A stretch of 29,699 nucleotides of DNA. It comes from a virus. The notes under the pieces are model-generated. The model worked only from the letters and a program-made list of their open reading frames with translations. It searched no databases and was not told the origin of the DNA. Made by a program: the position numbers and the translations under genes. Positions within the stretch are counted from its first letter, which is position 1; each line of letters opens with the position of its first letter. The stretch is from positions 1-29,699 of IMG/VR virus record IMGVR_UViG_3300042351_000333; one strand, given 5' to 3'. This document shows, in pieces, positions 64 to 7,541 of the stretch.

Positions 64-288
64 ATGCCCCTCAGCACCGCCGCCTATTACGTCTCCCTCA
101 ATTACGGCCACCACCTCATCAAGTGGGCTATCGGCCGGATCCGGGCCGGGAGCATGACCCCGGAACAGTTCGCCGAGAGCCAGACTGCGGACGCCCACCC
201 GCGGGATCCGAAGCGGGCCACCATCGCCCGGGGACTCCGGGAGATCATGGGAGAGAAGCCCGAGAACCTTCCCGAAAGCCTCCGATGA
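64..288 (+). CDS. Small hypothetical protein at the head of the packaging operon
   Basis: A 74-residue soluble protein that I do not recognise. It is mixed alpha-helical, with a basic middle (residues 47-60, rich in Arg and Lys) and no membrane segment. The ATG is preceded directly by CACCC, the same start context seen at many genes here. Its stop overlaps the small terminase start by ATGA at 285-288, so the two are probably translationally coupled. Being the first gene before the terminase, it could be a packaging or early accessory protein, but nothing in the sequence shows a function. Confidence 0.6.
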   Translation: MPLSTAAYYVSLNYGHHLIKWAIGRIRAGSMTPEQFAESQTADAHPRDPKRATIARGLREIMGEKPENLPESLR

Positions 289-929
289 CCCAAGCCGACT
301 ACGCAAGGGCCACCGGACTGACTAAGGGCCGAGTCTCCCAGTTGGTGAAGGCAGGAATGCCCCTAGCTTCCCGGGAGGCTGCCGACAAGTGGCGCGGCAT
401 GAGTACCCGCGCCCGCCCCACCGCAGGGGCCAAGGGAAAGCCGGCCGCACCGATCATCCCGAAATCCGCTTCGGGATCATCCGCGGAGCCGGGACCGTAC
501 CGACCGCCCGAGGCCCAGGCACCCACTGACCCCGCATTGATTTCGGCCGACACCCCGGCGGGCTCATACGAACGGCAAAAAGGCATCGAGAAAGCCGCTT
601 ACGCGTTGTCCGTCCGGGCGCTAAAGGCAGGGCAACCTGACGCCGGCCGCCTTGTTCAGATCCACAACCTCGCCGCCCGAAACCTGACCGCAGCCCGGGA
701 GGAAGTTCTCGCGCTGGCCGAACGGGAGCGGCACCTTGTTTCCGGTGACTGGGTCCGCAAAGCCATGATCGAACACGACGGAGCGGTCGCCACTTTGCTC
801 CGAGCAATGCCCAAGCAACTCGCCGGCCGCATCGCCCCTCACGACCCCGAACACGCAGAAAAGGAACTGGACCGCTGGGTCCAAGAAGTCGCCCTTGCCA
901 CTCTCCAACAAACCGATCCCTGGAAATGA
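285..929 (+). CDS. terS: Terminase small subunit, Nu1-like
   Basis: A 214-residue protein. Residues 2-35 form a helix-turn-helix (QADYARATGLTKGRVSQLVK), like the DNA-recognition domain of lambda Nu1. A Pro/Ala-rich linker follows at about 45-95, then a helical, charged C-terminal half (about 100-214) of the kind that forms oligomers and contacts the large subunit. Small terminases bind the packaging site and load the large subunit. The frame is open upstream to 123, but ATG 285 is preferred because it overlaps the previous stop by ATGA and starts the helix-turn-helix. Separation from the large subunit (2346) by two unrelated genes is unusual. Assignment rests on fold pattern and position. Confidence 0.72.
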   Translation: MTQADYARATGLTKGRVSQLVKAGMPLASREAADKWRGMSTRARPTAGAKGKPAAPIIPKSASGSSAEPGPYRPPEAQAPTDPALISADTPAGSYERQKGIEKAAYALSVRALKAGQPDAGRLVQIHNLAARNLTAAREEVLALAERERHLVSGDWVRKAMIEHDGAVATLLRAMPKQLAGRIAPHDPEHAEKELDRWVQEVALATLQQTDPWK

Positions 930-1564
930 AGACCAAGCCAACCATCGAAAACGTACCAATCGGGAAGCTGAAAGCCTACGACAGCAACGCCCGGACCCAT
1001 TCGCCGGAACAGGTCGCCCAGATCGCCGCTTCCATGGTGGAGTTTGGTTTCACCAACCCGGTGTTGATCGACAAGCGCGGGACCATCGTGGCCGGTCACG
1101 GTCGAGTCGAGGCCGCCCGGTCGCTTGGATTGGAGGAGGTGCCTTGCATTCGACTTGAACACCTCACCGAAGACCAAGTCCGGGCCTATTGTTTGGCCGA
1201 CAATAAATTGGCCCTAAATGCGGGGTGGAACATGGACACCCTCGCCGCGGAATTGAAAGGCCTCGAGGCGGTCGGGTTCGACATGAGCCTGACAGGTTTC
1301 AGCCCGGAGGAACTCGCCGAAATCATGGGGGACACCGTCGAAGACACCGACCCGGAGGAGCCCGCCCCGGAAGTCGAGTTCTCCGAGGAGTTGCTCCACG
1401 CCCACAACTACGTCGTGCTGTACTTCGACAACCCATTGGACTGGCAGGTCGCCCAGGAAAAATTCGGACTCAAGGAGGTGAAAGACCTCATCCCAAGAAA
1501 GGGACAACCCACCGGAATTGGCCGGGTCATCCGCGGCTCCGAATGGCTCAACCGCATCGCATGA
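926..1564 (+). CDS. ParB/sulfiredoxin-fold protein
   Basis: A 212-residue protein. Residues 1-110 look like a ParB N-terminal domain: a start typical of phage ParB-like proteins (IGKLKAYDSNARTHSPEQVA), then the box II-type loop G57-H58-G59-R60 followed by VEAARSLGLEEVPCI and a DNKLAL segment. The domain binds DNA or nucleotide; some ParB proteins are CTPases and some phage relatives partner DNA-modifying enzymes. An acidic linker (about 137-152) leads to a separate C-terminal domain with NYVVLYFDNPLDWQVAQEKF, which I cannot name. It overlaps both neighbours by ATGA, so it is co-translated with the small terminase and the glycosyltransferase. A plasmid-partition role is unlikely because there is no ParA. 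Confidence 0.78.
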   Translation: MKTKPTIENVPIGKLKAYDSNARTHSPEQVAQIAASMVEFGFTNPVLIDKRGTIVAGHGRVEAARSLGLEEVPCIRLEHLTEDQVRAYCLADNKLALNAGWNMDTLAAELKGLEAVGFDMSLTGFSPEELAEIMGDTVEDTDPEEPAPEVEFSEELLHAHNYVVLYFDNPLDWQVAQEKFGLKEVKDLIPRKGQPTGIGRVIRGSEWLNRIA

Positions 1565-2346
1565 AAGACCCCACCGTCTCCGTCATCATCCCGTCGTTTC
1601 GTCGGGCGCATCCAGACCGACTGCCCGGCCGAGATTATTTCAAGTCCGCCCGATACTGCGTCCCGGAATCCCAGGCCGCGGACTACGTCAACGTGGTCGG
1701 GGCGTCCCGGGTGTTGGCGATCCCGGACTCAGCCGACGGTAACATCGCCCGAAAACGGAACTGGATCCTTCGAAACATCCCGCGGCCGTTGCTCATGATC
1801 GACGACGACGTCAGCGGGCTTTGCCATACCGAAGGCGTCTACAAGCGCGGCCGGTGGACGGGCAAGAGCGACCAAAAGATCATGCTGACACCGGAGGAAG
1901 CCGACGACCTCATTGTCCGCGGGTTCAACCTCGCCCATCAGTTTGGGTGCGTTTTGTGGGGTCTCAACCTCAACGAGGACGGGCGCATCTACAAACAGTT
2001 CAAGCCGTTCTCGCTGTCCGCTCCGGTATTGGGGCCGTTCACCGGACACTTGGCGCACCGATACCTAAACGACGAAAGGATGGGATCGAAGGACGACTAT
2101 GACTTCGCGCTCCAGGTGTTAAACAGGGAACGAAAGATTCTCCGCCTCAATAAGTACGCCTACGTCTGCGAACACGGGGACAATGCGGGCGGGATCGTGT
2201 CGAGCCGAACAATTGAGTCCGAAACCAAATTCTGCCGGGCCATTGAAAGGAAGTGGGGGCGGCACGTCATCCAATACTCACTGCAACCGAAACGAATGGC
2301 CGACTTGTTGAACGCCCGAGTCGCCGTCCCGATTGGGAACGTCTGA
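1561..2346 (+). CDS. Glycosyltransferase of the TET-associated (TAGT/GREB1-related) type
   Basis: A 261-residue protein with a GT-A-like pattern: an N-terminal strand VSVIIPSFRR, a pyrophosphate/base region with ARKRNWIL, and a DDD cluster at residues 81-83 (LLMIDDDVSGL), the expected metal and nucleotide-sugar site. The C-terminal half has GSKDDYDFALQVLN, then LRLNKYAYV, a His-Gly patch and a Gly-Gly pair, as I recall for the TAGT family that glycosylates hydroxymethyl bases in phage DNA. No TET/JBP oxygenase, base methylase or hydroxymethylase is visible in the window, so the acceptor is unknown. Start ATG 1561 is chosen from the ATGA overlap, although the frame is open to 1225. A different glycosyltransferase target, such as protein, is possible. 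Confidence 0.68.
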   Translation: MKDPTVSVIIPSFRRAHPDRLPGRDYFKSARYCVPESQAADYVNVVGASRVLAIPDSADGNIARKRNWILRNIPRPLLMIDDDVSGLCHTEGVYKRGRWTGKSDQKIMLTPEEADDLIVRGFNLAHQFGCVLWGLNLNEDGRIYKQFKPFSLSAPVLGPFTGHLAHRYLNDERMGSKDDYDFALQVLNRERKILRLNKYAYVCEHGDNAGGIVSSRTIESETKFCRAIERKWGRHVIQYSLQPKRMADLLNARVAVPIGNV

Positions 2347-4166
2347 TGCTCACCGACTTACAACGTGACTTGCTCGAGTTCCGCCGCGGCCTGTACCGCC
2401 CGACCCCGCGGCAAACGGTCGTCGAGTGGACCGAGGCAAATCTCAAACTGACCGCCCGGCAGACCGAGAACCCGGGGCCGTTCTCGACCAGCGTCCGCCC
2501 CTACACAAGAGAGCCGTTGGAATGCTGGAAGGACTCCGGGGTCGTCGAGATGACTTTGTGCTGGGGATCCCAGACCAGCAAAACGACTACGCTGATGGCT
2601 GGCCTTGCGTGGCTCATCGACAACGAGCCGAGCCCGGCGCTTTGGCTGATGCCCACCGAAAACCTCGCCCGGTCGTTCTCGAAATCCCGGTGGCTTCCAA
2701 TGCTGGAGGATTGCCCGGCAATCGTGGCGCACTTTCCGCAGGATCGGGACAAGCTCACCAACCTCGAACAGCACTTCGACCGATCAACGCTGACGTTCGT
2801 TGGCAGCAACAGCCCGGCAAACCTCGCCTCTCGCCCCGTCCGGGTATTGGTGGCTGACGAGGTTGACAAGTTCGCCCAGGCCACCGAGCGGGAAGCCGAC
2901 GCCCTCGACTTGGCCGAACAGCGCCTCAAGGCGTTCAGTTCGTCCAAACTGTTCCTGACATCTACGCCGACCACCACCGACGGGCGCATCTGGCAACGGT
3001 TCCTCCGTGGTGACCAGCGCCGATTCTACCTCCCGTGTCCGCATTGCAAACAGCCGATCCGACTGGAGTGGAGACAAGTCAAATGGGACGAGACCGCCAA
3101 ACTTGAGGACGGCAAATGGGACTTTGGACGGGTTCGCGCCTCCGCCCGGTACGAATGCCAGCTTTGCAAGGGCAACATGACCGACGCCCAGAAGGTTGCC
3201 GGACTCAGACATGGGCAATGGATCCCGGAGAACAAAGGGGCGCTGCCCGGGGTGCGGTCTTACCATCTGTCGAGCCTCTACAGCCCGGACCGGAAATGCA
3301 CTTGGGGCCATCTTGCCGTGCAGTTCCTCGAAGCCAAGGAATCGCTGTTGGGCCTCCAGTCGTTCGTCAACGGTAACTTGGCCGAACCATGGGAGAACCA
3401 AGCCGCGCCACGGCAACGGGAGGAACTCATCGTGTCGGGCACCGAGGGCCTGACGGACAAGTGCGTGAAGTTCTTGACCGTGGATTGCCAAGCCTCCAGC
3501 CCGCACTTCTGGTTCGTGGTTCGAGCATGGAACGAAGACGGATCCTCCCGGGCGGTTGACGCCGGACCCCTCGATACTTGGCACGACGTGCGCGAGAAAC
3601 AGCGGGAACACGGGGTCGGGGACGTCCACGTCGTCATTGATTCAGGGTATGATGCCCCGACGGTTTACGCCGAATGTCTCCGGTGGGGGAGGTTCGTGGC
3701 TCGCACCGGGCGGGTGCCCCTTTGGGTCGGGTGGATGCCCTCAAAGGGAATGCCCCGCAAGGGATGGCGCAACCCGAAGACCGGGGTGGACGAGCCATTC
3801 TTCCTCCGAGGGATCGACCCGCGGGTGGGCGACAATGCCGGCAACCAAGGACGTCTCGAGCTCAAGCTTTTGGAGTTCGGCACCGACGTGACCAAGGACA
3901 TCCTCGAGCGCCTCCGCAAGGGCAAGGTCAGCACCCGGTGGGAGGTCGCCGAAAAGGTCGCCACCCCGGACTATTGGAGGCACCTCGACTGCGAACAAAA
4001 GGTCGCCCGCCTCTCGAGCGCCACCGGCCGAACGACGTGGACGTGGCTACCCAGGTCGTCAAAATGGCCGAATCACCTTGCCGACTGCGAAGTCATGCAG
4101 GTGGCCGCCGCGGTTTTCTTCAACCGACTCCGCATGACCGCCGCCTCATCGAACGATGCAAACTGA
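2346..4166 (+). CDS. terL: Terminase large subunit, GpA family
   Basis: A 606-residue packaging motor and DNA-cutting enzyme. The ATPase half has a variant Walker A at residues 74-81 (GSQTSKTT) and Walker B VLVADE at 167-172. A zinc-ribbon-like pair follows: C231/C234 (CPHC) and C271/C274 (CQLC), typical of the GpA family. The nuclease half has acidic residues at D380 (LTVDCQ) and D432 (VIDSGYDAPTVY). Length fits lambda gpA (641). GpA-type terminases usually make cohesive ends, but no cos site could be identified. ATG 2346 shares its A with the stop of the glycosyltransferase (TGATG); an earlier in-frame start at 2253 would overlap that gene deeply and is not preferred. Confidence 0.93.
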   Translation: MLTDLQRDLLEFRRGLYRPTPRQTVVEWTEANLKLTARQTENPGPFSTSVRPYTREPLECWKDSGVVEMTLCWGSQTSKTTTLMAGLAWLIDNEPSPALWLMPTENLARSFSKSRWLPMLEDCPAIVAHFPQDRDKLTNLEQHFDRSTLTFVGSNSPANLASRPVRVLVADEVDKFAQATEREADALDLAEQRLKAFSSSKLFLTSTPTTTDGRIWQRFLRGDQRRFYLPCPHCKQPIRLEWRQVKWDETAKLEDGKWDFGRVRASARYECQLCKGNMTDAQKVAGLRHGQWIPENKGALPGVRSYHLSSLYSPDRKCTWGHLAVQFLEAKESLLGLQSFVNGNLAEPWENQAAPRQREELIVSGTEGLTDKCVKFLTVDCQASSPHFWFVVRAWNEDGSSRAVDAGPLDTWHDVREKQREHGVGDVHVVIDSGYDAPTVYAECLRWGRFVARTGRVPLWVGWMPSKGMPRKGWRNPKTGVDEPFFLRGIDPRVGDNAGNQGRLELKLLEFGTDVTKDILERLRKGKVSTRWEVAEKVATPDYWRHLDCEQKVARLSSATGRTTWTWLPRSSKWPNHLADCEVMQVAAAVFFNRLRMTAASSNDAN

Positions 4167-4341
4167 CCTGCTGACCACCAAGGAACTGGCCGCCATGCTC
4201 AAGCGGGCTCCGTCCTACGTCTACGCCATGAAGGCCCGCGGGTTCCCAATGCCCGGGGGCCGCGCCCGTCTCACCGAGGCGCTGACATGGCTCACCCGAC
4301 ACCCACAACCGAGGGCAGAACGCCGGCACGGGCTCAAATGA
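4156..4341 (+). CDS. Small winged-helix/helix-turn-helix protein
   Basis: A 61-residue basic protein made almost only of a helix-turn-helix: TTKELAAMLKRAPSYVYAMK, then a wing-like Gly-rich turn (PMPGGRARL) and a helix ending TWLTRHP. This matches the Nu1/excisionase (MerR-like) layout. It overlaps the terminase end by 11 bases. It could be a second DNA-recognition subunit for packaging or a small regulator. No integrase is present, so an excisionase role has no partner here. Confidence 0.6.
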   Translation: MQTDLLTTKELAAMLKRAPSYVYAMKARGFPMPGGRARLTEALTWLTRHPQPRAERRHGLK

Positions 4342-4457
4342 GCAAGGACGGGCCAACGCCCCGGTGGCGTCCGGTCCCGGATCGTGCGGACCTTAAATCG
4401 TGGCAGTTTCCTCAGCATTCGCCCGCGGCCTCCTGCGTCACGTCTATTCGACGGTGA
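4338..4457 (+). CDS. Predicted 39-residue microprotein
   Basis: A very short reading frame supported mainly by its edges. ATG 4338 overlaps the previous stop by ATGA, and its TGA at 4455-4457 overlaps a GTG start at 4454 (GTGA) for the gpW-like gene. Both junctions match the coupling used across this genome. The product begins MSKDGPTPRWRPVP, contains DLKSWQFPQHSP and has no membrane segment. No function is recognisable. It may act only to carry ribosomes to the next gene. If the next gene actually starts at GTG 4400, this frame would overlap it by 58 bases and would be less likely to be real. Confidence 0.45.
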   Translation: MSKDGPTPRWRPVPDRADLKSWQFPQHSPAASCVTSIRR

Positions 4458-4759
4458 CCCATGGGGCTACGTTGCTGGACAAGCTCAACTCGCTCAACAA
4501 CGAGGCGGTCCACGCGCTTGAGTCGGGAAAGGTTCTCCAGCAAACCACGGGCAATGGTCGCTCGGTGACGTTTCAGGTCAACGCCAGTGAGGGCGTGACT
4601 CCCACCGAGATGTCGGAGATTTACAGCCGGCTCTTGGACCTGTATGACGACGCCGTCGCCGCGGGGAACGTGACCGACGCCACCCGCTACGCCTACATGA
4701 TGGCCCGGTTGAAGCCGATCCGGTCCTTCCGAAACGATTTCTCGAACCTGATCCGATGA
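4454..4759 (+). CDS. gpW-like head-completion protein
   Basis: A 101-residue protein. Its core ALESGKVLQQTTGNGRSVTF, followed by a helix SEIYSRLLDLYDDAV, parallels lambda gpW (a short helix, a GK..V hairpin with a GR.V.F strand, then a helix). gpW seals the filled head and prepares the neck for the tail. Its place between the large terminase and portal is the same as in lambda. The frame is also open from GTG 4400; GTG 4454 is preferred because it gives a GTGA overlap with the upstream microprotein and starts nearer the conserved region. The extra C-terminal helix makes it longer than lambda gpW (68). The homology is by eye. Confidence 0.62.
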   Translation: MTHGATLLDKLNSLNNEAVHALESGKVLQQTTGNGRSVTFQVNASEGVTPTEMSEIYSRLLDLYDDAVAAGNVTDATRYAYMMARLKPIRSFRNDFSNLIR

Positions 4760-6192
4760 ACCTCCTTCGACGCCTCCAGGCAGCTACCCGGTTCGTCGTC
4801 GCTCCCAAGGCACGATATGAGGGGGCTCGGCATTCGACTCAGCGGTCAACCCTCCACGGTTCGGTCCAGTCCGCCGCCTACGACATCGACCCGTACAGTC
4901 GCTACGAGTTGGTCCGGCGGTCCCGGTACTTTGAGCGCAACAACGCGTTTGTGAACCGGATCGCTGACCTTTTCGAGCAATACACCGTAGGACAGGGGCT
5001 CGCGTTCTTCCCGTCATCGTCCAGCCCGACTTGGAACGAGGCCGCCCTCAATTACTGGCGAGACTGGCAACGGTTCGCCGACCTGTCGTCCCGGCTGTCG
5101 TTTGGATCCCTCCAAGGCATCATCGCCCGGGCGCTTTTCGTCGATGGCGAGATCTTCGTCATCCTCACCCGAGGCGACTCCGGCAACCCTCGGATCCAGT
5201 TGGTGGAATCCCACCGAGTGAAGACCCCGCCCACCCAGGACGGCCGGACGATCATCGACGGAATTGAGGTGGACGACCGCGGCCGCCCGACCGCCTATTG
5301 GATCACCAACGAGGACGCAAAGCGAAAAGAGACTTTCCAACGGGTGGCTGCCGAGTTCGTCGTCCATGTCTTCGAGCCCGGCCGCCCGGGGCAGTACCGA
5401 GGCCTCCCGGCGCTTTACCCGGTGATGAACGACCTCCACGACCTCGACGATCTTCAGATCTTCGAGATGCAAGCCGCCAAGGCCGCCTCGAAGGTTCAGA
5501 ACGTCATCAAGACCAAGGAGGGAGAGGTCACCGACGACGACATCATCCGCGGCACGGTCACCGGATCCGATGGCGTCGAGCGGGCCGACTATTACAAGGA
5601 CGTCTTCGGTGGAGAGGTCGCCGTTCTCAAGCACGGGGACGAGTTCAACCAGTTTCAAGTCGAGCGCCCGTCCGCGGCCACCTCGGGATACTGGGATTAC
5701 CTGACCGCCAAGGTCTGCGCTGGAATCGGGGTGCCCAAAGAAATCGTGCTGCCCACTTCGATGCAGGGGACCTCGATGCGGTCGGTGTTGGACATCGCCA
5801 ATGCGTTCTTCCGGTCCCGGTCTGCCGTGATCGCTGATCACCTCCGCCGGGTCTACGAGTACGTCATCGAGACCGGCATCCGCACCGACCCCGCGCTCCG
5901 CATTCCGCCGGCTGACTGGTATCGGTCCACCTTCCGGGCTCCGCGATCCATCAACGTGGACGTGGGACGCAATTCCGCCGCCGCGGTCGCTGAGTTCAAG
6001 ACGGGGATGCGAACCCTCCAGAGTATCTACGCCGAGACCGGGGAAGACTGGCGCGAGCAGCTACGGCAAAAGGCGGCAGAGATTGCCTATGCCCAAGAGC
6101 TTGCCCAAGAGTTCAACGTGGACCGGGCCGAGATCATGACTCTCGACCCCAACGAGCTTTCGAGCAACAACGCCGCAGCCGCCAACCCGTGA
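4756..6192 (+). CDS. Portal protein, lambda family
   Basis: A 478-residue protein that forms the ring through which DNA enters the head and to which the neck attaches. Recognisable features are YSRYELVRRSRYFERNNAFV near the N-terminus, the VDGEIFVILTR strand, IVESHRV-like nucleotide-facing loops, and the C-terminal stretch MQGTSMRSVLDIANAFFRSR. These are typical of the lambda gpB-type portal family. It starts by ATGA overlap with the gpW-like gene and ends by GTGA overlap with the head protease. Length is close to lambda gpB (533). Confidence 0.92.
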   Translation: MNLLRRLQAATRFVVAPKARYEGARHSTQRSTLHGSVQSAAYDIDPYSRYELVRRSRYFERNNAFVNRIADLFEQYTVGQGLAFFPSSSSPTWNEAALNYWRDWQRFADLSSRLSFGSLQGIIARALFVDGEIFVILTRGDSGNPRIQLVESHRVKTPPTQDGRTIIDGIEVDDRGRPTAYWITNEDAKRKETFQRVAAEFVVHVFEPGRPGQYRGLPALYPVMNDLHDLDDLQIFEMQAAKAASKVQNVIKTKEGEVTDDDIIRGTVTGSDGVERADYYKDVFGGEVAVLKHGDEFNQFQVERPSAATSGYWDYLTAKVCAGIGVPKEIVLPTSMQGTSMRSVLDIANAFFRSRSAVIADHLRRVYEYVIETGIRTDPALRIPPADWYRSTFRAPRSINVDVGRNSAAAVAEFKTGMRTLQSIYAETGEDWREQLRQKAAEIAYAQELAQEFNVDRAEIMTLDPNELSSNNAAAANP

Positions 6193-7541
6193 ACACCTGG
6201 TTCGACATCCAAGCGAAGGCCAACGACGAGGCCGAGATTTATCTCTACGACGAGATCGGTGGTTTCGGCGTGAACGCGAAATCGTTCATCGACGCCGTTA
6301 AGGCGACCGGGGCCAAGCGAATCAACCTCCGCATCAACTCGCCCGGCGGGTCGGTGTTCGACGGCATTGCCATCTACAATTTCCTCCGCGGCCAGGACGT
6401 CACCGTCCAGATTGACGGACTCGCCGCGTCGATCTCCTCGATCATCGCCTTGGCCGGCAAGACGGTCCGCATCGCCGGCAACGGGTTCTTCATGATCCAC
6501 AACCCGTGGGGCGGGGCCATCGGTGAGGCCGACGAAATGCGCCAGACGGCCGACTTGCTCGACAAGATCCGGGACAGCCTCGTGGGCACCTACGCCGCCA
6601 AGACCGGCAAGGACTACGACACCATCAAGAAATGGATGGACGCTGAAACTTGGTTCACCGGAGCCGAGGCCAAGGAAGCCGGTTTCGTGGACGAAGTGAC
6701 CGACGAAATCGCCTTCGCCGCTTCGACCCGGTCGTTCCGCAACGCTCCCGACGCCCTCAAGGCCGTTTCCAAGACCGCGCCCCAGGCTGCCCGCCGCGCA
6801 TTTGACAAAGGGGTCCAGCAGGTCGAGGACGGCAAGGGGGGCGACGGACTCGAACCCGCCACCGTCAAGGAAGCTCGAAGCCTCAAGGCCGGTGAGACTC
6901 CGACCGAGGCGAAGGTCCGCAAAGCTTACCGTTGGTGGGCTCGCAACGAGCGGTTCCTCGAAGCCGAGGCCGACAGCCCGGCCGACGTGGCTGCCAATCT
7001 GTGGGGAGGGGCCGCGGGCCGTGACTGGTTCCGCGCCTTGTACGCCCAACTGGACGAGGACAACGACTCGCCCGAGACCCCGGACAATTCCGAAACCCAA
7101 CCCCAACCCATGACCAAACTACTCCAGAGCCTCGCCGCCGCCGGGCTCATCTCCTCCGCTGACGTTGCCGAGGACACCGCCGTCACCGAGTTCGAACATT
7201 TCTTCGCCGCCTTCAAAAAGGCCAAGGACGACGCCCAGGACGCGCTCGACCAGATCGCCAAAGCCAAGGTCCTCTCGACCGTTGACGCCGCCATTGCTGA
7301 TGGCCGCATCGCCGCCAGCGTCAAGGATGCCTGGGTCGCCCAGATCCAAGCTGACGCCAAGGCCGCCGAGTTGCTGGCCGCGATCCAGACCCCGAAGCCC
7401 GGAGCCGACCCCGTTGGGGCACCGGCCGGAGCGGGTGGCAAAGCTTCCGACGAACTCCGCGCTGAGTTTGATCGGATCACCGATCCGAAACAGCGCACGG
7501 CTTTCTGGTCCCAACACAAGGCCCAGTTGCTGAAAAAGTAA
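6189..7541 (+). CDS. ClpP-type head maturation protease with scaffold-like C-terminus
   Basis: A 450-residue protein. Residues 15-175 form a ClpP/S14-type serine protease: INSPGGSVFDGIAIY, catalytic Ser81 in GLAAS, His104 in MIHNPWG and Asp151 in MDAETWFTG, followed by AKEAGFVDEV. It processes head proteins inside the prohead. After residue 190 comes a charged linker region, then from Met308 a helical Ala/Lys/Asp-rich domain like a scaffold. This copies the lambda C/Nu3 arrangement, where the scaffold is read from an internal start. The gene begins with GTG at 6189 inside a GTGA overlap with the portal stop. The ORF ends 24 bases before the capsid gene. Confidence 0.9.
   Translation: MNTWFDIQAKANDEAEIYLYDEIGGFGVNAKSFIDAVKATGAKRINLRINSPGGSVFDGIAIYNFLRGQDVTVQIDGLAASISSIIALAGKTVRIAGNGFFMIHNPWGGAIGEADEMRQTADLLDKIRDSLVGTYAAKTGKDYDTIKKWMDAETWFTGAEAKEAGFVDEVTDEIAFAASTRSFRNAPDALKAVSKTAPQAARRAFDKGVQQVEDGKGGDGLEPATVKEARSLKAGETPTEAKVRKAYRWWARNERFLEAEADSPADVAANLWGGAAGRDWFRALYAQLDEDNDSPETPDNSETQPQPMTKLLQSLAAAGLISSADVAEDTAVTEFEHFFAAFKKAKDDAQDALDQIAKAKVLSTVDAAIADGRIAASVKDAWVAQIQADAKAAELLAAIQTPKPGADPVGAPAGAGGKASDELRAEFDRITDPKQRTAFWSQHKAQLLKK
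7110..7541 (+). CDS. Predicted internal-start scaffold (Nu3-like), in frame with the protease gene
   Basis: ATG 7110 is in frame within the protease gene and preceded directly by CAACCC, the context found before many real starts here. The product would be 143 residues, beginning MTKLLQSLAAAGL, with long Ala/Lys/Asp-rich helices, a Pro/Gly-rich hinge (about 98-112) and a basic C-terminal helix. These fit a capsid scaffold whose C-terminus binds the coat protein. In lambda, Nu3 is made the same way from inside gene C. The evidence is start context, composition and analogy, with no scaffold family match that I can confirm. Confidence 0.42.
   Translation: MTKLLQSLAAAGLISSADVAEDTAVTEFEHFFAAFKKAKDDAQDALDQIAKAKVLSTVDAAIADGRIAASVKDAWVAQIQADAKAAELLAAIQTPKPGADPVGAPAGAGGKASDELRAEFDRITDPKQRTAFWSQHKAQLLKK

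Follow-up and report, generated by a model that had tools for sequence, protein, structure and literature searches.

Why should a virus carry a gene for a ParB-domain protein and a gene for a glycosyltransferase between the two genes of its terminase? The question is raised by the left end of a 29,699-base virus record, IMGVR_UViG_3300042351_000333 (the window, i.e., the whole stretch of DNA that was analysed; IMG/VR records may be fragments). Here four genes overlap head to tail in the order terS (terminase small subunit), parB, glycosyltransferase and terL (terminase large subunit). A first-pass annotation had placed the pair at 926-2346 with tight overlaps, and its coordinates and junctions were confirmed: the parB start overlaps the terS stop in ATGA (926-929), the glycosyltransferase start overlaps the parB stop in a further ATGA (1561-1564), and the glycosyltransferase/terL junction is TGATG (2344-2348). 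Working throughout from sequence and predicted models, we consider it likely that the pair is an exchangeable DNA-modification cassette, in which a ParB-type adaptor and a glycosyltransferase of the TET-associated (TAGT) family would add a sugar to the phage DNA before encapsidation, so that the injected DNA would resist restriction in the next host.

The evidence that carries this reading comes from the contents of the same slot in related phages. These were selected by a search with TerL only, so that ParB and the transferase had no part in choosing them; the best 80 of 195 matching loci were kept (TerL identity 57-100%), and the 67 with a visible terS match were tallied, the other 13 being set aside. 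The pair as found in the window, i.e., ParB with a transferase of the same type, occupied the slot in 15 of the 67. ParB was accompanied by another TAGT in 14, 13 of them of a second group and one (L238) in which the protein beside ParB, at first unclassified, is a third TAGT (E 1.1e-48). A ParB-N6/N4 methylase was present in ten loci, ParB with Mom in six (TerL identity 73-99%), ParB with an ABC-ATPase-GNAT protein in one, and QueC and/or TGT-like genes in four. Examples of the assignments are Mom in L189 (Pfam PF25680, E 1.9e-55; Mom-like phrog_1384 in PHROG, 7.8e-48), TAGT PF20691 in L200 (5.4e-35), L217 (3.7e-34) and L233 (3.1e-38), N6_N4_Mtase PF01555 in L206 (1.2e-25), L223 (7.3e-23) and, more weakly, L215 (1.3e-7), and QueC PF06508 in L242 (3.3e-45). 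The ABC-GNAT protein matches phrog_11143 (4.6e-142), a family with no named function; passages of PMC7824862 mention a predicted DNA-base modification by a GNAT that is coupled to an ABC ATPase. The TGT-like assignment has as its sole basis a PHROG match at 6.1e-05, and the QueC/TGT-like genes of L242 and L257 precede terS, outside the terS-terL interval.

Relatives lacking a cassette were also found, terS directly abutting terL in L203 and L204 (TerL 90%). Other occupants of the region were noted in passing. QueC and TGT-like genes lie beside terS/terL at L242:293-868 and L248:171-1423, which suggests 7-deazaguanine DNA modification in these relatives. In relatives whose TerL identity is 57-58%, a protein of about 165 amino acids is encoded directly 5' of terL (L246:2057-2551, L249:898-1398 and others); the L246 copy has no Pfam or PHROG match and the L249 copy no Pfam match. 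A protein of 226-264 amino acids occupies the same position at L206:3827-4507, following the ParB-methylase, and L236:3695-4489, and its L206 copy matches phrog_20533, of unknown function.

The borders of exchange were placed by comparing DNA. Between the window and L189, which carries ParB and Mom and a TerL 99% identical to that of the window, DNA identity was 89.3% over 1-1231 and 91.6% over 2346-6500; L190 gave the same identities, and L191 gave 89.2% and 92.9%. Inside the intervening segment, no blastn match to any of the three was found at E 1e-10. Similarity also resumed at base 2346 in L213 and L205 (Mom), L201 (second TAGT) and L206, L207 and L221 (methylase), at 2352 in L217, 2349 in L231 and 2345 in L238, and further in for L233 and L242. 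The left border fell inside parB in the Mom cases and in L201, L206, L207 and L217, so that the N-domain of ParB stays while its tail changes together with the enzyme. The ParB tail and the enzyme are thus exchanged as one unit in a DNA-modification slot. Because Mom, methylases and other modifiers are exchanged with it in the same slot, the transferase most likely glycosylates phage DNA. A DNA-modification role had been proposed before on the strength of the family name, and it now has this exchange as a basis too.

The partnership of ParB and transferase extends to viral contigs at large. A scan with the transferase alignment gave 171 matching loci, of which the best 80 were kept, and 80 came from a scan with the ParB alignment, whose search patterns are those of the C-terminal tail. 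The transferase-found loci were counted as testable if at least 650 nucleotides lay upstream (8 of 80 fell short); 1 of the 80 found with ParB lacked room. In the testable transferase-found loci, a ParB gene lay upstream at a distance of at most 2.7 kb in 71 of 72, and within 60 nucleotides in 54; a transferase lay downstream in 79 of 79 testable loci found with this type of ParB tail. Contigs of close relatives were counted singly, and since many come from closely related phages the loci are not to be taken as independent events. ParB and transferase go together far more often than chance would allow, and the pairing is near-obligate. The first-pass annotation had treated the two genes as an odd insertion; they are instead a recurrent module, and the recurrent slot contents together with the pairing led us to reject a one-off or chance insertion.

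Among the 17 loci with ParB farther than 60 nucleotides away, ten have another transferase in between (L045, L046, L054, L055, L069, L072, L094, L097, L098, L104) and four a methyltransferase (L063, L070, L071, L091); L096 has a short gap, and in L100 and L101 only the matched part begins late, the transferase gene itself following ParB. The sole miss, L049, has another transferase at the edge where the contig begins. Among the open reading frames (ORFs) downstream of the pair (n = 150, 77 loci, E 1e-5), 32 matched TerL phrog_2, 27 phrog_3717 and 23 TerS phrog_309, and in other phages the pair often directly precedes terS/terL. We also observed that the separating methyltransferases at L070:5439-6014 and L091:1268-2038 are S-adenosylmethionine (SAM)-dependent enzymes of the Methyltransf_11/23 families, and that radical SAM proteins precede transferase homologues near terminase genes at L019:7294-8765 (DUF5131/PF07505) and L020:79-1847 (Radical_SAM with SPASM/PF13186), a possible further type of partner for the transferase. 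Upstream of one ParB-transferase pair, L125:1769-2806 appears, judged from the letters alone, to join HNH-like and cytidylyltransferase-like parts.

What might ParB contribute? The window protein exceeds the Pfam cut-off for ParB_N (Table 1), and its profile matches solved ParB/Spo0J structures (6sdk, 2e-14). In a 74-row alignment, G57 of the pocket is invariant and R60 conserved at 90% or more, while in the tail W173 and R200 are invariant and F152, N161, Y162 and others reach at least 90%; dN/dS (the ratio of nonsynonymous to synonymous substitution rates) was 0-0.10 in five comparisons, indicating purifying selection. Compared with seven ParB proteins that have other partners, the N-domain in the window shows 56-68% identity, the alignments stopping at residues 126-165, and the window tail profile matched none of ten ParB proteins with other partners. 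ParB_N was the sole Pfam family at cut-off in the 212 residues, with no helix-turn-helix or dimerisation domain found and no fused PF01555 methylase of the kind present in the sister cassettes L206 and L223. The Pfam scan covered 54 hand-picked ORFs, 38 from the window (some overlapping ones left out) and 16 from the relative L002 (about 12 of these in a gap of about 4.6 kb), and the ParA family was absent from the families listed for the 50 others. Because neither a helix-turn-helix nor ParA was found among the scanned ORFs, a role in chromosome or plasmid partition was rejected. Passages of PMC10434257 describe a Psychrobacter phage with a ParB-domain ORF shortly before terS/terL that was read as a partition gene, with Mom elsewhere in the genome.

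According to passages of PMC12704722, fusions with N6/N4 methylases are frequent among phage ParB folds, and a conserved arginine lets some proteins of this fold bind ATP, CTP or GTP, which makes a nucleoside triphosphate (NTP)-gated, DNA-loading role plausible for the window ParB by analogy. A nuclease role is also possible on analogy with Bce_0392, an adenine-methylase fusion whose ParB domain has nonspecific nicking activity according to passages of PMC5512222. The pair might then be a weapon resembling restriction-modification, in which ParB would nick or degrade unmarked host or rival DNA while the mark laid down by the glycosyltransferase protects the phage's own, and the pocket residues G57 and R60 are indeed kept. 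We regard this as unlikely: the slot adjoins packaging genes, which would be late for host takeover, and the ParB of representative cassettes either forms a fusion with a modifier or stands beside one, no other nuclease being found by Pfam in those proteins.

The transferase itself is above the curated cut-off of the TAGT family PF20691 and matches PHROG 842, beta-glucosyl-HMC-alpha-glucosyltransferase (Table 1). The first-pass annotation had seen a GT-A-like DDD motif and a TAGT pattern, and both were borne out: D81-D82-D83 and D179 do not vary across the 82 rows of an alignment, and the predicted model has a GT-A fold (predicted local distance difference test, pLDDT, 93.1; predicted template modelling score, pTM, 0.90). 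The gene is under purifying selection (dN/dS 0.04-0.10, six relatives). Among viral models, the closest with informative names were mostly TAGTs, including the beta-glucosyl-HMC-alpha-glucosyltransferase of a Klebsiella phage (E 1.2e-10); ranks 3 and 6 were named glycosyltransferase and KfiA, and GT-A/GT2-like labels appeared mostly from about E 1e-4 on. When the transferase group of the window was compared with the second TAGT group by profile, the match had 81% probability and E 1.3e-5 over only 84 N-terminal columns. Searches of PDB sequences found no solved relative, either with the single protein at E 10 or with a profile, which gave only two matches (E 0.69 and 0.82). The predicted structure fits the TAGT family; DNA as the substrate goes beyond the evidence of the fold.

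Several observations, given in this and the next paragraph, weigh against a cassette that glycosylates DNA. In the slot tally, 17 of the 67 relatives had no recognised modifier, seven having only the protein of about 165 amino acids and ten nothing recognised. Vibrio phage X29 and Rhodobacter phage RcKvothe have ParB before the terminase genes with no recognisable modifier, and in Streptococcus phage Javan254 the ParB in that position has a different C-terminal domain and no methylase motif. In L020, which lies outside the counted sets, a radical SAM/SPASM gene rather than ParB precedes the transferase, the contig beginning 78 nucleotides before that gene. Microbacterium phage Paschalis has a related pair located away from the terminase genes (transferase profile 7e-27, ParB tail profile only 9e-4), its transferase being below the Pfam TAGT cut-off. 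GT2 glycosyltransferase, nitroreductase or cytidylyltransferase-like genes adjoin some of the ParB-transferase loci, and in L134 a sulfotransferase-like gene, judged from the letters alone, lies beside the pair; such glycan-type neighbours would also suit glycan assembly. An enzyme that alters a host surface glycan and thereby excludes superinfection would agree with these neighbours in other carriers, with the GT-A/GT2-like fold and with the UDP-glucose dehydrogenase family gene next to the Paschalis pair. It gives no reason for the near-obligate coupling to ParB or for exchange with Mom and DNA methylases, and we think it quite improbable. The PDB folds closest to the transferase model belong to sugar- or protein-acting GT-A enzymes, with VIA-align Z up to 13.8 for GalNAc-T2, a polypeptide GalNAc-transferase (root-mean-square deviation 4.3, 222 aligned), and likewise for cellulose synthase. 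That GalNAc-transferase leads the PDB chains, and that the gene sits among structural and packaging genes, would favour decoration of a virion or packaging protein with ParB as scaffold, which is very unlikely given that GalNAc-transferases, cellulose synthase and chondroitin polymerase all lie within about 1.5 Z of each other, so that the list shows fold rather than substrate, and that the other recognised occupants of the slot modify DNA or are predicted to do so.

The acceptor of the sugar is the other point to be weighed. The first-pass annotation had seen no TET, cytosine methylase, hydroxymethylase or thymidylate gene, and none was found by Pfam among the 54 scanned ORFs, or among 25 of the 47 PHROG families listed. 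We also searched 32 records: the window itself, relatives that represent several types of cassette, further carriers of the ParB-transferase pair, Javan291 and P8625. The thymidylate-synthase/hydroxymethylase family PF00303 was found in none of the 32, the positive control being found in 9 of 14 genomes, and a precursor pathway like that of the T-even phages was rejected for the records searched. C5 cytosine methylase PF00145 was present in two, one of them the window-type relative G006. TET was found in 0 of 32, a result of little weight in that its positive control was never detected. Possible acceptors are an unmodified base, a modification made by the host and the product of an unrecognised phage enzyme. 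Mom and the N6/N4 methylases, which share the slot, have unmodified bases as their substrates, and it is conceivable for this reason, if rather doubtful, that ParB and the TAGT together glycosylate DNA in one step with no hydroxymethylated precursor; the terS-terL interval would then be a plug-in socket for a common ParB loader with interchangeable heads, each with its own tail.

How would the DNA-modification cassette work? From the observed gene order, terS, parB, the glycosyltransferase gene and terL would be transcribed together late, and the cassette is probably expressed late. The N-domain of ParB, the part common to the ParB cassettes and homologous among them, would bind NTP and load onto DNA, and the tail, which is exchanged with its enzyme, may recruit that enzyme by contact. 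The GT-A enzyme, to judge by its fold, motif and family, would then use a nucleotide sugar as donor and attach the sugar to a base or a base-attached group, and the marked DNA would be packaged.

In passages of PMC13216743, PF20691 is the enzyme with which T2/T6 attach a second glucose to glucosyl-hydroxymethylcytosine (glucosyl-hmC) in DNA; of the 753 phage genomes counted there, 288 have solitary TAGTs, suggested to be novel transferases. The window transferase resembles the T2/T6 TAGT in its Pfam family and phrog_842 match, and the T6 model described there in its GT-A fold. It differs in being coupled to ParB beside terS/terL, and in that the T2/T6 enzymes act on glucosyl-hmC made after dCMP hydroxymethylation, whereas PF00303 is missing from the records searched here. 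That the T2/T6 TAGT follows dCMP hydroxymethylation also means that association with TET, after which the first-pass annotation named the type, does not define TAGTs. With the TET/JBP-TAGT and base J pathways, the system has a TAGT-type glycosyltransferase in common, although no TET/JBP was found, again by a search whose control was never detected. Phage fusions of ParB with N6/N4 methyltransferases (phrog_498; for example, gene 3 of P8625) share the ParB N-domain (56% identity to P8625) and the position beside the terminase genes; in the window, however, a glycosyltransferase gene of its own supplies the catalytic part, and the ParB tail differs. The Mom (PF25680) cassettes of the six relatives have the same slot and the same ParB N-domain, but the window enzyme is a sugar transferase, whereas Mom is an acyltransferase acting on adenine N6 (PMC7824862). 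In phage Mu, mom is a late gene (PMC4461284). A literature search found no description of ParB paired with a TAGT in titles, abstract openings or passages; an earlier mention is possible, the neighbourhood survey of Iyer et al. (2013) having been outside the search.

Similar arrangements occur in named phages. Streptococcus phage Javan291 carries a window-type transferase. Verrucomicrobia phage P8625 has its ParB-methylase fusion before the terminase region, with a TerL only 20% identical to that of the window, and ParB stands with an ABC-GNAT relative 5' of the terminase genes in Streptococcus phage Javan523 and Pasteurella phage Pmp13. Javan254 was rejected as a methylase carrier, despite its annotation, its ParB having another C-terminal domain and no DPPY-type motif; this domain of the protein (L263:3489-4586) is perhaps DUF4417, as annotated in a similar phiBHN167 protein. 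In Paschalis (L261:8907-11082) the pair, ParB gp83 and transferase gp84, is followed by the UDP-glucose dehydrogenase family gene, which may possibly supply the sugar donor. Among 387 genomes of the phylum of a Roseibacillus genome, the transferase profile was found in eight at E 1e-10 and TerL in three at E 1e-60.

The features of the locus are collected in Table 1. The window is a fragment, and contigs related to it show circular permutation: in L002, a match to the final 1.9 kb of the window is followed by about 4.57 kb absent from it, and then by a match to its first bases. Pfam matches in the scanned ORFs include portal, Clp protease, tail-related, RusA and PD-(D/E)XK nuclease families, as well as nucleotide pyrophosphohydrolase, metallophosphoesterase and DnaC-like proteins. 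On the reading preferred here, the cassette lies in the packaging-gene cluster of a tailed phage of about 34 kb.

Table 1. Coordinates of the terS-terL slot and of its parts in the window
Feature	Position	Strand	Evidence
terS, terminase small subunit, 214 amino acids, left flank of the slot	285..929	+	phrog_57 E 1.7e-6
ParB/Srx-domain protein, 212 amino acids	926..1564	+	PF02195 27.3 bits (cut-off 26.3); phrog_620 1.2e-58
TAGT-family GT-A glycosyltransferase, 261 amino acids	1561..2346	+	PF20691 38.6 bits (cut-off 27.5); phrog_842 3.7e-12
terL, GpA-type terminase large subunit, 606 amino acids, right flank of the slot	2346..4166	+	PF05876 (GpA_ATPase) 1.7e-62; PF20454 4.2e-19
ParB N-domain (border approximate), common to cassettes with other enzymes	926..1330	+	56-68% identity
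C-terminal tail of ParB (approximate border), kept where the glycosyltransferase is of this type	1331..1564	+	74-row alignment
DDD motif D81-D83, putative metal/nucleotide-sugar site	1801..1809	+	82-row alignment; role inferred from GT-A enzymes
Unit exchanged in Mom phages whose TerL is 99% identical, from inside parB to the terL start	1232..2345	+	blastn vs L189, L190, L191

One group of solitary TAGTs thereby gains a defined partner and a defined context, and the results point to ParB as a component common to phage DNA-modification systems. The slot also yields a naturally occurring series of phages, closely related to one another but with different DNA-modifying heads. If the enzyme does act on unmodified bases, it would represent a new kind of DNA glycosylation and, at the same time, a new tool enzyme.

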